The notes: generated by a model from the letters alone, not told the origin. A DNA stretch of 64,000 nucleotides from Bacteroidia bacterium (GCA_030427925.1 JAUICJ010000005.1:62001-126000); one strand, 5' to 3'. Numbered from the stretch's first letter, positions 52,974 to 62,468 are shown. Translations and numbers: made by a program.

Positions 52974-53804
52974 ATGGGCAAATGCATTCACTGCGGACAA
53001 CCCGCTGGCTGGTTCCGTTCCCGCCACGCTGCGTGCGAAACAGAGCACCGAAACACCGTTCAGGAACTCCCCCAATTCATTGCACGTTCCATCGCGGACG
53101 GGCGAGAAATCGATGTGGTGGAACCGGAACTGCAGCGCATGAGCGAATTGGGATTCCTGAAGCCTGCAGTGCGTGAGCAGCTCATCCAATCGGGCATCGC
53201 ATTGGCCGTGGACCAAGCGCTGGACGACGAAGAACTTACGGAGGAGGAGGAGAACCGCATCTCCACATGGGTCAATGAACTCGCAGCGAATCACCCCGCA
53301 TTGAAATCCTCTGAGGCCGTGGTGCGGCTGGTTCGAGCGGCGATCGTGCGCAATTTGCGCGAAGGAAAACCCGTCACCGGGCGAATGAGTTCGGAAGGCC
53401 TGCCCTTCTTATTTCAAAAGTCCGAGGACCTGATTTGGGCTTTCAACCACGTTGACTTTTACCAAAACACCACCCGTACCGAATACGTCGGCGGCAGCCA
53501 GGGCGTGAGCGTACGCCTGACGAAAGGCGTGTACTACCGAACCGGTTCCTTCCGCGGCCGGCCCGTGAAAGTGGACGAGCTGAAGCACCAAGGCACGGGG
53601 ATGCTCGCCATCACCACGAAGCACCTGTACTTTTGGTCCCCCAACAAGGCGTTCAAGGTGCCTTTTGCGAAACTCATCTCGATGGAAACGTTCGAGGACG
53701 GCATCCGCATTCAACGGGATGGCACCACCACGAAGCCGCAGATTTTCAAAGGAATTGATGGCTGGTTTGCGGCCAACCTCATCTCGAACCTTCATCAACA
53801 ATGA
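52974..53804 (+). CDS. Zinc-ribbon protein with PH-like C-terminal domain, unknown
   Basis: 276 residues. A likely zinc site is formed by Cys4, Cys7, His18 and Cys21 (CIHCGQ ... HAAC). A helical middle (about 30-130) is followed by a beta-rich domain (KGVYYRTGSFRGRPV, MLAITTKHLYFWSP) like bacterial PH domains. No membrane segment. Its last 26 bases overlap the convergent membrane-protein gene. Confidence 0.72.
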   Translation: MGKCIHCGQPAGWFRSRHAACETEHRNTVQELPQFIARSIADGREIDVVEPELQRMSELGFLKPAVREQLIQSGIALAVDQALDDEELTEEEENRISTWVNELAANHPALKSSEAVVRLVRAAIVRNLREGKPVTGRMSSEGLPFLFQKSEDLIWAFNHVDFYQNTTRTEYVGGSQGVSVRLTKGVYYRTGSFRGRPVKVDELKHQGTGMLAITTKHLYFWSPNKAFKVPFAKLISMETFEDGIRIQRDGTTTKPQIFKGIDGWFAANLISNLHQQ

Positions 53805-55140
53805 CGGATTCCTCTGCTTCGAACGCGGGGACCTCGTCCAAGGCGAAGGCTTCGAGGTCTGCCGCACGCACCCGCAAGCCGTAAACCAGCGGAAACACCA
53901 CGGTCACCACTGCCGACCACACCACGAACACCGCCAACGCCCGGTTCAGCACGTTGCGCGTTCGCTCGAATGGCGACGCGGCGCTGGGCCTGAACCACTG
54001 GCGAAGCAGGGCCACCAAGGTCCCGAGGAAGATCAGGTTGCCGATGAGCACGGTGAGTCGATTTGGCGTAACGCCCCACTCCCCCAATCGGCTGGCAATG
54101 GCCGCAATGCCGACCAAATCCGCGAGGACCCCCAACACCACCAGCGCGACCATCAGGCCATGCAACCAGCGCGGAGCCCCTTCGTCGAACGCCGAATGCA
54201 GGAGCACCAATCCAATGACCGCCGCGAGCAAGACATTGAACACGAACAACTGCTCGCGATCCGAACTCAATGCCGCGAAGCCGTCAGTGAGGTGCGCCAC
54301 CAAAAATCCCGCCTCGACCAACACGAAGAGCGGGATGAAAATGCGCGCCAACGTGGGCAGGATGCGCTCCAAGGCCTGGGGGTGCCGCAGCCAAACGGCG
54401 TGACCGAACACCAGCGCACCGCTCAGGCCCCAAACAGCGAGGTGAATGTTGATTTGTTCCACCAACCACGACCCGACGTTTGCGCTCTCCATCAAGAGGT
54501 TGGTCAACCCCAGCAGCACCCCGCCAGCCGCCAAGACCAACCCGGTGAGGATGGCCACTTGAACGGCATGCCGCACGAAATCCACCCGCTGCTCATCGCG
54601 ACGCGCCCGAACGAACGCCCATCCGGTCAAGCCCGCCAGCAACAACGGCCAATGGATCATCATCAAATCGCGCGCTTGCACCGCCAAGTTCACCCGCTCG
54701 CCCGCTGCCTCCAATCCACTGTCCACCTCCACGGCATGCTGCACGCGCCATTGCGAAGGCCACGCCTCCCAACCCCACCACGCCAGCGCCACGGCCACCG
54801 CTGCCACCCCAGCTCCGATCAGGAGCCGCACGTCCCTTCGGCCATGATACGCTAAGAGCGGACCGAACGCCAAGGTGGCCATCAACGGCACCGCCCATTC
54901 CGGGTCAAGGTCGCCACTGCCCCAATACGGCGCCAAGAAAACCGCCGCGATGCCCAATGAAACCGCGATGGCAAAGGGAAAGCCGTTGGAACGATCGGGC
55001 AGCGCATCGGCCGCAAGTCGAGCGGCCCACGTGCGGGCCACAGGTGCCTCCTTCGGGGCGGATTCAAAGGCCGTACGGAAGCCAGAAGCGTCTTTGCGGT
55101 ACCAGCTTTCCAGGTCTTCGGGGGTGCGATTCCACATCAT
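53779..55140 (-). CDS. Polytopic membrane protein (DUF4153/4173-like)
   Basis: 453 residues with about a dozen hydrophobic segments after a 50-residue cytoplasmic N-terminus. The segment GVTPNRLTVLIGNLIFLG resembles the DUF4153/DUF4173 families, but the match is by eye and weak. Not recognised as a transporter. ATG 55137 is an equal start. Confidence 0.7.
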   Translation of the reverse strand: MMWNRTPEDLESWYRKDASGFRTAFESAPKEAPVARTWAARLAADALPDRSNGFPFAIAVSLGIAAVFLAPYWGSGDLDPEWAVPLMATLAFGPLLAYHGRRDVRLLIGAGVAAVAVALAWWGWEAWPSQWRVQHAVEVDSGLEAAGERVNLAVQARDLMMIHWPLLLAGLTGWAFVRARRDEQRVDFVRHAVQVAILTGLVLAAGGVLLGLTNLLMESANVGSWLVEQINIHLAVWGLSGALVFGHAVWLRHPQALERILPTLARIFIPLFVLVEAGFLVAHLTDGFAALSSDREQLFVFNVLLAAVIGLVLLHSAFDEGAPRWLHGLMVALVVLGVLADLVGIAAIASRLGEWGVTPNRLTVLIGNLIFLGTLVALLRQWFRPSAASPFERTRNVLNRALAVFVVWSAVVTVVFPLVYGLRVRAADLEAFALDEVPAFEAEESVIVDEGSR

Positions 55141-55219: not shown

Positions 55220-55606
55220 ATGCGCGCTTTCGTGACGGTATTCATGGTGGGGGTGTTGCTGGGCCAAAGCGGATACAATTTGGCCCGCGTCCTCCATTAC
55301 GCCGCGGAATACGACCACTACGTGAACGTGCTGTGCGAAAATCGCGACCGCCCGGAACTCCACTGCAATGGCGCTTGCCACCTGAAAAAGGAGCTCGCGG
55401 AGTCGCCGGAACCCGCCGCCCCTTCCCTGCCCGAAATCGAATCGACTGCCCTGTGGATGCTGATGGCGCCCGCGGTTGAATTCCAGCTGTTGGGGGCACA
55501 CGATGGAGTTCGCAGCACCCGCCCGATGACTTCGGCCGGTGCGGTGTGCGCGGGGTGGTTGCGTCGGATTGAGCACCCGCCCGGAATGGGACTTCACCTC
55601 TGCTGA
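55220..55606 (+). CDS. Small exported CNGxCH protein, probable metal-linked
   Basis: 128 residues: an N-terminal hydrophobic segment, then VLCENRDRPELHCNGACHLKK, with Cys39, Cys49 and Cys53 suited to bind a metal. Related short proteins with CxGKCHLKK occur beside metal genes in Bacteroidota, from memory. First gene of the MbnP/MbnH cluster. Confidence 0.72.
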   Translation: MRAFVTVFMVGVLLGQSGYNLARVLHYAAEYDHYVNVLCENRDRPELHCNGACHLKKELAESPEPAAPSLPEIESTALWMLMAPAVEFQLLGAHDGVRSTRPMTSAGAVCAGWLRRIEHPPGMGLHLC

Positions 55607-55636
55607 AGTCGTTAACTCAATAAAAAAACATTCCGA

Positions 55637-56407
55637 ATGAATCGCTCATTTTATTCGGTCATGGCCGTGTTGGCTGTGGCCGCTACCGTTGCTGCATGCA
55701 ACAAACCCGAAGACGAACCCACCCCGACAGCGGCGTTGGGATCGTTCGAAATTGAAATGGAATACACGTGGGGAATGGACGGGAGTCCGTTTGTCCTGAG
55801 TGCGCCGTTGCACCACCCGATGAGTGGGGACACCCTGACGTTCGAGACGTTCAAGCACTACGTTGGCAATGTGGCGCTTGAAAGCGTGGACGGGGAGACC
55901 TTTGCGAACGCGGATGCGTACGCCCTGTTCGATGCGTCGGAGCCGAGCTCGCTGGTGTTGCGCGTGTCGGACGTTCCCGAAGGCGACTACGCCTCGATGA
56001 CCTTGACCCTGGGCGTCGACAGCGCGCGCAATGTTTCGGGCGCCCAGTCCGGAGCGCTCGACCCGACGTTGGGCATGTTCTGGAGCTGGAACACCGGGTA
56101 CATCATGATCAAGGCGGAAGGCACTTCACCGCAAAGTTCCACCGGGTCGTTCGCGTACCACCTCGGCGGATTCAGTGGGGAGAACGCTGTGCAGGCTGAG
56201 CGAACGTTCGATTTGGCCAGCAAGGGATTGCTGACTGTCCGGACGGATGCTGTGCCCACCGTTCATTTCATGGCGAATCCGGCGCGGCTCTTCCACACGT
56301 ATGGAAGCGTGGCAAATGGGCCCAACGTGCACATGCCGGGACCGGCCGCTGGCACGATGGGGCAGGATTTCCACAGCTGGATCTACCTCGACCACATCCA
56401 CCCGTGA
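55637..56407 (+). CDS. MbnP-like copper-binding lipoprotein
   Basis: 256 residues with a lipobox ending VAAC (Cys21). Beta-rich domain with the family hallmark LGMFWSWNTGYIMIKAEG; Trp149 or Trp151 is the candidate for oxidation to kynurenine, as shown for MbnP of methanotrophs. Conserved His (HFMANPARLFH, HMPG) can bind copper. Overlaps the di-haem peroxidase gene by four bases, its expected partner. Confidence 0.85.
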   Translation: MNRSFYSVMAVLAVAATVAACNKPEDEPTPTAALGSFEIEMEYTWGMDGSPFVLSAPLHHPMSGDTLTFETFKHYVGNVALESVDGETFANADAYALFDASEPSSLVLRVSDVPEGDYASMTLTLGVDSARNVSGAQSGALDPTLGMFWSWNTGYIMIKAEGTSPQSSTGSFAYHLGGFSGENAVQAERTFDLASKGLLTVRTDAVPTVHFMANPARLFHTYGSVANGPNVHMPGPAAGTMGQDFHSWIYLDHIHP

Positions 56408-57426
56408 ACCCGCGAATTTCGGTGGTGGCGCTCGGGTTGAGCGCTGCCATCGGATTCGCTGGTTGCCAAAAAGTTCAGGAATTGGAGCCGGAACCGCTGA
56501 AATTGGCGGTTCCGGACCATTTCCCGGACCCGATTTTCGGCACCGGCGAAACCGCACCGACCGCCGCGGGGTTCGAGCTCGGACGGCGGCTGTTCTACGA
56601 CCCGGGCTTGTCGGTTGACGGAACCATTTCTTGCGGCTCCTGCCACGCCCAAGTCCATGCCTTTGCGGACCACAACGTCGCGCTGAGCACAGGGGTTGGC
56701 GGGGCGTTGGGCACGCGCAATTCTCCGGCGTTGAGCAATTTGGCCTGGTATCCCACCTTCATGGCGGATGGGGGCATCACGCACTTGGAGGTCATGCCGT
56801 TGGCCCCGTTGATGAGTCCCGTTGAAATGGCGGCTGACAGCGAGCACCTCATGAGCTACTTGAAGTCCCATCCGGTCTATCCCCGGCTGTTTCAGAACGC
56901 CTTCGGCGGGGAGCCGACGGGCCAGCGGTTGTTGAAAGCCCTTGCCCAGTTTCAGGCGATGCTCGTGAGCGCGAATGCCCGCTACGACCAGTGGGCCTTG
57001 GGCCAAATCGACTTCACCGACACCGAACAGCGCGGCTACGACCTGTTCGTCGCACACTGCTCCACGTGCCATACCGAGCCGCTGTTCACGGACTTCAGTT
57101 ACGCGAACACCGGCCTCGACTCCGTATCCGCGGATGCGGGGCGCTACCGCGTCACCCTGGACCCGCTCGATCACGGCGCCTTCAAGGTGCCCAACCTGCG
57201 CAACGTTGCGCTGACGCGCCCCTACATGCACGATGGGCGGCTCTTCACCTTGCGTTCGGTGGTGGACCATTACGCGGACGGGGTCATCGTGCACCCGGGA
57301 TTGGACGAGCGCTTGCCGGGCCCTTTGGGCTTGGATGAACAACAACGGGAGGACCTCGTGGCCTTCCTTGAAACCTTGACGGACTATGAATATTTGGCCA
57401 ATTCGCAGATTTCAGAACCGCGCTAG
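56404..57426 (+). CDS. Di-haem cytochrome c peroxidase family (MbnH-like)
   Basis: 340 residues; lipobox GFAGC (Cys21). Two haem c sites: CGSCH (Cys77, Cys80, His81) and CSTCH (Cys219, Cys222, His223). MbnH forms a bis-Fe(IV) state that turns a Trp of MbnP into kynurenine; the adjacent MbnP-like gene supports that role here over simple peroxide removal. Overlaps neighbours at both ends. Confidence 0.92.
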   Translation: MNPRISVVALGLSAAIGFAGCQKVQELEPEPLKLAVPDHFPDPIFGTGETAPTAAGFELGRRLFYDPGLSVDGTISCGSCHAQVHAFADHNVALSTGVGGALGTRNSPALSNLAWYPTFMADGGITHLEVMPLAPLMSPVEMAADSEHLMSYLKSHPVYPRLFQNAFGGEPTGQRLLKALAQFQAMLVSANARYDQWALGQIDFTDTEQRGYDLFVAHCSTCHTEPLFTDFSYANTGLDSVSADAGRYRVTLDPLDHGAFKVPNLRNVALTRPYMHDGRLFTLRSVVDHYADGVIVHPGLDERLPGPLGLDEQQREDLVAFLETLTDYEYLANSQISEPR

Positions 57427-58339
57427 CGGAATCGCCTTCGGGTTGCTGTTCCTTGTGCAACACGCGGCGGCCTGCGACGCCTGCGGTGGGGGTGGGGTGT
57501 ACAACGGATTCGGCTTCATGCCGTTGGCTGACCGTCCCATCGTGGGCCTGAACTACCGCCAATTGACGTTCACCCACCCCGCGGGCAACTGGAACGGCGA
57601 GAGCGCCGTGCTCACGGACCGGTTTTTGAGCGGCACGGCCACCGTGCTTTGGATGCCGATTCCGCGGTTGCGGATGGTCGGTTCGGTGCCGTTTCGCCAC
57701 CACACCCGAACGGAGTCGTTGCAAAGCACGGTCCTTTCGGGCGTGGGGGACTTGCGCTTGGACGCGGACTGGAACGCATGGGAATCCGGGGCCGGTTTCT
57801 GGGTTCGCCTCGGGGGCGGCGTGAGCGCTCCCACGGGCACGTACATGGCGCGCGACGCGTCGTTCAAGCAGCTCCCTCCCTCCTTTCAGCTCGGCCGTGG
57901 AGCCTGGGGAGGCAGCGCGCGGATTGCGGTGGCCGTGGCCCCCGACGCGTGGACGTTCATCGCGACCGGGGAAACGTCGGTTTGGGGAAGCAACGAACAA
58001 GGATACCGCGCGGGCCTGCTGAATCGGCTGGGCGCGCAGGCCTTTCGGCGCATGGCCGGGAAGCAACGCACCTGGCTCCCTCAGGCGGGATTCCACTGGG
58101 AAAGCTGGCAAGCCGACCGCGAGCGGGGCAGCCTTCTGTTGGCCACCGCCGGCAGCCGATTCGTGGGACGTGCTGGCGTGACGCTGCAACGCGCAAGCCA
58201 ACTGATTCACGTCGCCGCGGAATGGCCGCTTGCGCAAGACGTGGCGAGCGATGCGCCCTCATTGGGCGGAACGTTGGAAATCGGATGGGCTTGGCAGTGG
58301 AGCGGGGACCTGCCGAAATCGCGGGTCAGGTTCCTTTGA
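57386..58339 (+). CDS. Outer-membrane beta-barrel protein with CDACG motif
   Basis: 317 residues: signal ending HAAA, then CDACGGGGVYNGFGFMPLAD at the mature N-terminus and alternating strands typical of a transporter-like barrel. The CxxC could bind copper. Starts 41 bases inside the peroxidase gene, so it belongs to the module. Convergent overlap of 14 bases with the next gene. Confidence 0.78.
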   Translation: MNIWPIRRFQNRASGIAFGLLFLVQHAAACDACGGGGVYNGFGFMPLADRPIVGLNYRQLTFTHPAGNWNGESAVLTDRFLSGTATVLWMPIPRLRMVGSVPFRHHTRTESLQSTVLSGVGDLRLDADWNAWESGAGFWVRLGGGVSAPTGTYMARDASFKQLPPSFQLGRGAWGGSARIAVAVAPDAWTFIATGETSVWGSNEQGYRAGLLNRLGAQAFRRMAGKQRTWLPQAGFHWESWQADRERGSLLLATAGSRFVGRAGVTLQRASQLIHVAAEWPLAQDVASDAPSLGGTLEIGWAWQWSGDLPKSRVRFL

Positions 58340-58970: not shown

Positions 58971-61642
<2,672 letters not shown>

Positions 61643-61702: not shown

Positions 61703-61811
61703 TCGCCCGCATAGACGCCGTCGATGATGCATCGAAACCATTGATTGACGCGGGATAGCGTATGTGAGAGGGGTCACGAATGGCGGCGGATTGCGGTCGG
61801 AGATTTGGGGC

Positions 61812-62468
61812 ATGGAAAACAACAACCTCACCCCCGCGCCGAGCATGCCCCGCATCGGGGACGTGGCGCCCGACTTCACGTCGATGACCACCTTCGGCGA
61901 GCTGAACTTTCACGAGTACATTGGCGACAGCTGGACCGTGCTCTTCTCGCACCCCGCCGATTTCACGCCCGTTTGCACGACGGAAATGAGCGGCTTTGCT
62001 TTGGACAAGGATTGGTTCACCGAGCGCAACACGAAGCTCATGGGCCTCTCCATCGACTCCATCCACGCGCACATCGCTTGGGTGAACAACGTGAAGAAGA
62101 ACACGGGCGTGCTCTTCGACTTCCCCATCATTGCGGACATCGACATGAGCGTGTCGAAGTTGTACGGCATGTTGCAGCCCGGTGAAAGCGAAACCGCTGC
62201 CGTGCGCGCCGTCTTCTTCATCGACCCGTCGAAGAAGATCCGCCTCATCATGTACTACCCGCTCAATGTGGGCCGGAGCATGCCGGAAATCAAGCGCGTG
62301 TTGGAAGCGCTGCAAACCTCGGACACCCACAAAGTGGCGATGCCGCTGAACTGGACGCCGGGTGAGCAAGTCATCGTTCCGCCGCCCAAGACTGTGGAGG
62401 GAATGCTCGAGCGGGAGGCATCCGACTACGACATGGTCGACTTCTACCTCGCAAAAAAGTCGCTGTAA
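61812..62468 (+). CDS. 1-Cys peroxiredoxin (Prx6 group)
   Basis: 218 residues from the ATG at 61812. Peroxidatic Cys55 in HPADFTPVCTTE; no other Cys, so it is a 1-Cys enzyme needing an outside reductant. The C-terminal arm (PLNWTPGEQVIVPPP) is typical of Prx6. Cytoplasmic, complementing the exported KatG. GAGATTTG lies four bases before the start. Confidence 0.95.
   Translation: MENNNLTPAPSMPRIGDVAPDFTSMTTFGELNFHEYIGDSWTVLFSHPADFTPVCTTEMSGFALDKDWFTERNTKLMGLSIDSIHAHIAWVNNVKKNTGVLFDFPIIADIDMSVSKLYGMLQPGESETAAVRAVFFIDPSKKIRLIMYYPLNVGRSMPEIKRVLEALQTSDTHKVAMPLNWTPGEQVIVPPPKTVEGMLEREASDYDMVDFYLAKKSL

Follow-up and report, generated by a model that had tools for sequence, protein, structure and literature searches.

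A candidate copper-sensing leader peptide heading an MbnP/MbnH operon with a predicted outer-membrane barrel in Bacteroidota

The window, i.e., the whole stretch of 64,000 nucleotides from a Bacteroidia bacterium that was analyzed (GCA_030427925.1, JAUICJ010000005.1:62001-126000), holds at positions 55220-58339 four open reading frames, all on the plus strand, encoding a small protein (P1), an MbnP-family lipoprotein, a di-heme lipoprotein of the MbnH type and a predicted outer-membrane barrel (P4) (Table 1). A 30-nt gap separates P1 from the MbnP gene, the MbnP and MbnH genes overlap by 4 nt, and the MbnH and barrel genes by 41 nt, the start codons of the downstream genes being predicted. Because the upstream neighbor (53779-55140, minus strand) is divergent, P1 is the first gene. 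Chance cannot explain this arrangement, since PF20243 and CCP_MauG were matched with E-values of 3.6e-46 and 1.5e-47, respectively, and in many genomes the four families are again found together. A preliminary description of the locus had likewise reported four overlapping or close genes, including an MbnP-like lipoprotein with a WSW motif and a di-heme MbnH-like lipoprotein, and all of this was confirmed.

Table 1. Features of the P1-MbnP-MbnH-barrel operon, numbered from the first nucleotide of the window.
Feature	Position	Strand	Remark
P1 (128 aa), candidate arrest leader for copper sensing, opening the operon	55220..55606	+	
P1 Cys block, C39-E-N-R-D-R-P...C49-N-G-A-C53-H	55334..55381	+	C49, G51 and C53 invariant in 36 members
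Predicted stall site of P1, codons of Pro120-Pro121 (IEHPP), 7 codons from the stop	55577..55582	+	60/61, 64/64, 30/30 and 31/31 P1s
RNA stem, 5' arm CGGAATG, which a ribosome stalled at Pro-Pro would cover	55582..55588	+	expected pairs 5.5 vs 0.2 in synonymous recodings
RNA stem, 3' arm CATTCCG, one base before the MbnP ATG (55637)	55629..55635	+	
Inner hairpin GACTTCA / TGAAGTC across the P1 stop codon	55590..55610	+	
MbnP-family lipoprotein (PF20243), 256 aa	55637..56407	+	M147, W149, W151, Y155 and H175 conserved
MbnP W149-S-W151, W149 being the expected kynurenine	56081..56089	+	aligned with WNW of 7l6g
MbnH-type di-heme enzyme (bCcP/MauG superfamily), lipoprotein, 340 aa, GTG start	56404..57426	+	
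P4, predicted outer-membrane beta-barrel, 317 aa, about 12 strands	57386..58339	+	CDACG (C30-G34) at the likely mature N-terminus

The MbnP protein reached 157.9 bits against PF20243 (Pfam cut-off, 27), carries the lipobox VAAC21 and has Tyr at position 43, which is His in most relatives. Against the NCBIfam model TIGR04052 it obtained 29.8 bits, below the curated cut-off of 140, and the four-Cys motif of that family was not found in it, the lipobox Cys21 being its sole cysteine. A single-sequence search of the PDB with this protein found nothing. A profile of 21 of its relatives matched 7l6g (“metallo-mystery pair system four-Cys motif protein”; E = 0.0017), which we take to be the MbnP of OB3b, over a region spanning WxW and the conserved His, with GMFWSWNTG aligned on GMAWNWQAG and the His of YHLG on that of VHVG. 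The di-heme protein displays heme sites at C77GSCH and C219STCH, a PYMHDG motif and the lipobox FAGC21. It scored 211.8 bits against MbnH TIGR04039, below the cut-off of 362.85, yet this is its best NCBIfam match, MauG TIGR03791 giving 187.5 bits for a cut-off of 443.85. It combines two CxxCH motifs with adjacency to an mbnP gene, as MbnH does within the bCcP/MauG family, and its closest solved relative is 6e1c (“Di-heme enzyme”), presumably the MbnH of M. trichosporium. The locus shares with the methanobactin operons (M. trichosporium OB3b; 7l6g, 6e1c) the gene pair, the WxW motif, the conserved His and a MauG-type di-heme enzyme with PYMHDG, but its pair falls below the NCBIfam cut-offs, has no four-Cys motif or methanobactin genes, and consists of Bacteroidota lipoproteins accompanied by a leader peptide and a barrel. 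The absence of a methanobactin gene, already noted from the window, extends to the genome, in which MbnB (PF05114) has no homologue. The preliminary description had also stressed the occurrence of an MbnP/MbnH module outside methanotrophs; the pair is real, but this aspect is not new, as pairs beyond methanobactin producers have been known since 2013 (PMC3621798) and NCBIfam already names both families. A second MbnP/MbnH pair lies on another contig of this genome, and a PF20243 protein was found in 38 of 40 genomes of this order, nearly always beside a di-heme gene.

The first Trp of WxW is reportedly the kynurenine site, as Manesis is said to have found in 2021. Among 138 MbnPs, all 106 that adjoin an MbnH gene keep both WxW and H175, whereas the 32 without an adjacent MbnH are divided into 16 that lost WxW and 16 that kept it; these counts are not a random sample because the patterns used to collect half of the proteins favor an intact WxW. 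Some genomes with a WxW-keeping MbnP and no neighboring MbnH carry a close MbnH elsewhere, and one (G254) has none. At least 7 changes of WxW are needed on the tree, and 11 independent pairs gave on average 4.5 concordant and 0 discordant cases, with a borderline median p of 0.06. H175 is also present in the 16/16 MbnPs that kept WxW without an adjacent MbnH, and in 5/16 of those that lost it, while M147 falls from 95/106 in MbnPs with an adjacent MbnH to 4/16 in the latter group. The view that loss of WxW equals loss of the kynurenine Trp was wrong, since W149 is kept in 12 of these 16 proteins and the loss falls on W151. The preliminary description had named Trp149 and Trp151 together as candidate residues; where MbnH is absent, W151 and H175 are lost more than W149. 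We infer from this pattern that M147, W149 (as kynurenine) and H175 would form the copper site, and that W151 would take part in the reaction of MbnH, perhaps by relaying electrons. The kynurenine-forming potential initially attributed to the window MbnP is plausible, in view of the constancy of WxW next to MbnH. Besides, second MbnP copies without WxW, with Lys replacing His175, were observed beside the barrel at L226 960-1739, L231 1206-1982, L232 520-1302, L240 3643-4449 and L245 3766-4554, each of these loci having in addition an MbnP with WxW and an MbnH. A YHYH-domain protein (PF14240) with a type IX sorting tail adjoins MbnP/MbnH at L037 4144-5529 and L038 7699-9063, and may be another partner of the copper pair.

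The two remaining genes had been presented as extra parts with open roles; both are real, and roles can now be proposed for them, that of an outer-membrane barrel for the CDACG protein and that of a regulatory leader for the CNGxCH protein. P4 carries CDACGGGG from C30, the CDxCG motif being nearly invariant among its relatives. It has no Pfam match, and a few relatives weakly match Phenol_MetA_deg or OMP_b-brl. In an AlphaFold2 model computed with 35 relatives, 12-13 long strands were obtained, most blocks having a pLDDT above 90 (mean, 86), behind a disordered N-terminus bearing CDACG. With long amphipathic strands following a signal peptide, as expected of outer-membrane beta-barrels, the model indicates that P4 is most likely an outer-membrane barrel, and its N-terminal Cys pair may bind copper.

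P1 consists of an N-terminal hydrophobic segment, judged by eye to be an export signal, followed by C39, CNGACH at 49-54 and, near its end, Pro120-Pro121. Across 36 members, C49, G51, C53, P120 and P121 are the sole invariant positions; the mean majority frequency reaches 0.64 for the Cys block and 0.67 for IFHPP, compared with 0.24 for the linker between them, of which the sequence is near background and the length nearly fixed (Cys-to-PP spacing, 62-83; median, 68-69). A Pro-Pro lies in the last 14 residues of 60 of 61 P1s, for 2.4 expected from shuffles (maximum of 9 in 500 rounds), and of every member of three further sets, of which the set of 64 partly overlaps the genomes of the 61 and the set of 31 holds about one genome per genus. 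By contrast, none was found in the last 14 residues of 57 MbnPs, 58 MbnHs and 65 barrels from the neighboring families. The P1s of L157 and L330 have no PP in the open reading frame as called. A second P1-like gene of this genome (L249; C2, about 180 kb) keeps the Cys block, has no C-terminal Pro-Pro and precedes a glycosyltransferase-like gene. Neither the window P1 nor its family members matched any Pfam family, and DUF2946 (PF11162), the family of CruR and CutF, was absent from the matches of the 36 members at E up to 1. P1 thus unites an export signal, a Cys motif, a Pro-Pro near the stop and first position in a copper-related operon, the features of a copper-sensing arrest leader, and is best read as a regulatory leader rather than a structural copper protein.

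In the wider phylum, the P1 family was found in 120 of 296 Bacteroidota genomes. P1 adjoins the barrel in 60 of 64 barrel loci, MbnP being also present in 39. A survey of the gene order, as suggested in the preliminary description, gave two recurrent arrangements: that of the window, P1-MbnP-MbnH-barrel, and one with the barrel gene in second place, P1-barrel-MbnP-MbnH. When named genomes were scanned, P1 was located ahead of MbnP in most of 80 loci with an MbnP of the window type, including those of Schleiferia, Thermaurantimonas, Phaeocystidibacter, Crocinitomix, Taishania, Taibaiella and many MAGs. A Flavobacteriales-type P1-MbnP-MbnH also occurs in a record titled Glaciecola amylolytica chromosome (L193, CP034120.1), by transfer or through mislabeling. 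Across the wider phylum, P1 is also the leading gene of operons that encode a YtkA-like lipoprotein together with a TonB receptor, the best NCBIfam match of the receptor often being TIGR01778 (“TonB-dependent copper receptor”), with up to 228 bits for a cut-off of 472, and it heads other TonB-receptor-like genes as well. A copper TonB receptor was sought in the genome under study, with weak partial matches only. P1-type leaders were also seen before a His/Met-rich protein of about 340 aa (RPDGHAPISVMGDHxHxKGExMFSYRYMxM; L285, L299, L300, L302, L303, L309, L317, L322), possibly another copper outer-membrane protein, and small lipoproteins follow P1 or P1-barrel genes at L260 5374-5754 (DUF4625), L254 4325-4711 and L264 4495-4881.

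The mRNA around the end of P1 was then considered. In the window, the 5' arm begins with the third base of the Pro121 codon and pairs with the 3' arm around the inner hairpin, the number of pairs in Table 1 being that expected between the footprint of a stalled ribosome and the MbnP initiation region. Fold energy alone is unexceptional (z = -1.43), and Rfam gave no match. Over 75 distinct P1 junctions, expected pairs averaged 5.7 vs 3.7 in synonymous recodings (Wilcoxon p = 1.5e-8), 25 of them ranking at 0.05 or less, whereas 49 control junctions of the same operons gave 2.58 vs 2.56, with 1/49 significant. The excess gave p = 6e-4 with 39 representatives at 75% identity and p = 0.055 with the 8 left by clustering at 65%, and it was repeated in two further sets (p = 0.019 and 0.009), relatedness of the sequences not being fully removed from any of these p-values. 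The profile was the same in these sets: the paired stretch runs from about +6 to near +18 from the first Pro nucleotide and pairs mostly with positions -17 to -7 relative to the next start. A switch at the ribosome-binding site is not universal because in one genus with MbnP/MbnH the conserved stems enclose PP and leave the start codon free (a covariation test there met almost no informative changes); therefore, other lineages may use another step, e.g., transcription attenuation.

Alternatively, P1 could be an exported copper-binding peptide or chaperone acting with the barrel and MbnP, HPP serving for binding or sorting and the RNA pairing being incidental. Such a role would suit the Cys block, the strongest P1 motif, the nearly constant company of P1 and barrel, and the ability of a Cys-rich exported peptide to carry Cu(I). 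A folded chaperone should nevertheless conserve more than 5 of 128 residues, and the P1 linker is unconserved though constrained in length; moreover, P1 precedes first genes as varied as MbnP, the barrel, the TonB receptor and the YtkA-like lipoprotein, and pairing exceeds that of synonymous recodings at P1 junctions and not at others. We hence regard this explanation as conceivable but rather unlikely.

The leader reading is in line with what is described for CruR (DUF2946), the product of a Bordetella pertussis copper uORF, which is like P1 an exported Cys-motif sensor with a near-fixed spacer and a Pro-Pro arrest motif near the stop. CruR is made of a signal, CXXC, a spacer and RAPP three residues before the end, is encoded by the first gene before a copper TonB receptor, and has relatives that head MbnPH and TonB-receptor operons (PMC9426467), contexts that are thus common to CruR-type leaders and P1. 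Its arrest has been demonstrated in vitro, in a study whose survey of copper-related RAPP/RGPP leaders found them missing from Bacteroidota (PMC12992588). The two differ in that CXXC is 45 residues from RAPP in CruR and CxGxC about 68 from HPP in P1, in having no Pfam similarity, and in that CruR works via Rho whereas pairing at the next ribosome-binding site is indicated for P1. With about 35 residues in the ribosome tunnel and about 30 across SecYEG, a spacer of 68 would bring CxGxC to the periplasmic face, whereas, by the same geometry, the 45 residues of CruR would leave CXXC near the ribosome exit. CutF of Rhodobacter capsulatus is also a nascent exported copper sensor with a Cys pair and a Pro-rich C-terminus, and a stem-loop masks the SD of the downstream cutO (PMC9973294); unlike P1, it is DUF2946-like and has other targets. 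The Bacteroidota candidate arrest peptides NAP-stop and NSP-stop are, like P1, leader ORFs with conserved C-terminal Pro, but they lie upstream of secDF or secA, with no copper link reported (PMC10987492).

Taken together, these data make it probable, as far as sequence analysis can tell, that the operon serves copper handling and is regulated through its own leading gene, with P1 as an arrest leader, MbnH forming kynurenine on MbnP and the barrel being their outer-membrane partner. During translation of P1, its N-terminus would go to the Sec channel and the ribosome would slow or halt at the C-terminal I-x-H-P-P. In free mRNA, the codons after Pro-Pro would be base-paired with the region where MbnP synthesis is initiated; a ribosome halted on Pro-Pro would block this pairing and allow translation of MbnP, MbnH and the barrel. 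Copper bound to the exported CxGxC block would end the stall and turn the operon off, in the way proposed for CruR, a sign that is suggested by CruR itself and by the TonB-receptor context. MbnH, with H2O2, would oxidize W149 of MbnP to kynurenine, giving a copper site with H175 and probably M147, and the barrel with its CDACG N-terminus would act at the outer membrane. The role of the operon is probably acquisition under low copper. More broadly, the chances are slightly better than even that P1 represents a family of copper sensors, not described before and found in about 40% of Bacteroidota genomes, that work as nascent chains: translocated CxGxC would read periplasmic copper and arrest at HPP would open the ribosome-binding region of the next gene, so that operons for copper import and for MbnP/MbnH with the barrel would be under their control.

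Another reading is a defense against copper and peroxide, in which MbnH would be an H2O2 peroxidase, MbnP a periplasmic copper sponge and the barrel an exit route, with copper raising expression. Copper does raise production downstream of CutF (PMC9973294), opposite to the sign proposed for P1, and near the operon lie KatG, a catalase-peroxidase (59369-61642) apparently exported because it carries a lipoprotein-type signal (FASCGSS), and a 1-Cys-type peroxiredoxin (61764-62468). These two genes were rejected as module members, as they do not recur beside it in relatives read gene by gene, and the same leader heads operons of TonB-copper-receptor-like genes. In addition, the CorA/CorB and MopE/SACCP systems of methanotrophs, which likewise place a kynurenine copper protein (two-histidine Cu site) beside a di-heme peroxidase-like gene, are copper-repressed, as observed for corA/corB and mopE (PMC3912023); the CorA and MopE sequences are not markedly similar to MbnP (PMC3621798). 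A defense role therefore appears improbable. That this is simply an MbnP/MbnH pair on which two unrelated genes hitchhike, as might be suspected from the many genomes in which P1 or the barrel is not alongside MbnP/MbnH, is hardly credible, because P1 and the barrel go together in dozens of genera and under two gene orders.

The new part of this system looks like the P1 leader, the MbnP/MbnH pair being already known. Copper sensing and uptake are poorly known in Bacteroidota, and a family of leaders that is widespread and has a different arrest motif would fill this gap while pointing to the copper genes behind the leader in many genomes. For ribosome biology, the HPP of P1 would provide a new candidate arrest sequence. 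Outside methanotrophs, copper sites with kynurenine would also become associated with a regulatory leader, and a natural test of the kynurenine chemistry is offered by the loss of WxW, H175 and MbnH together.
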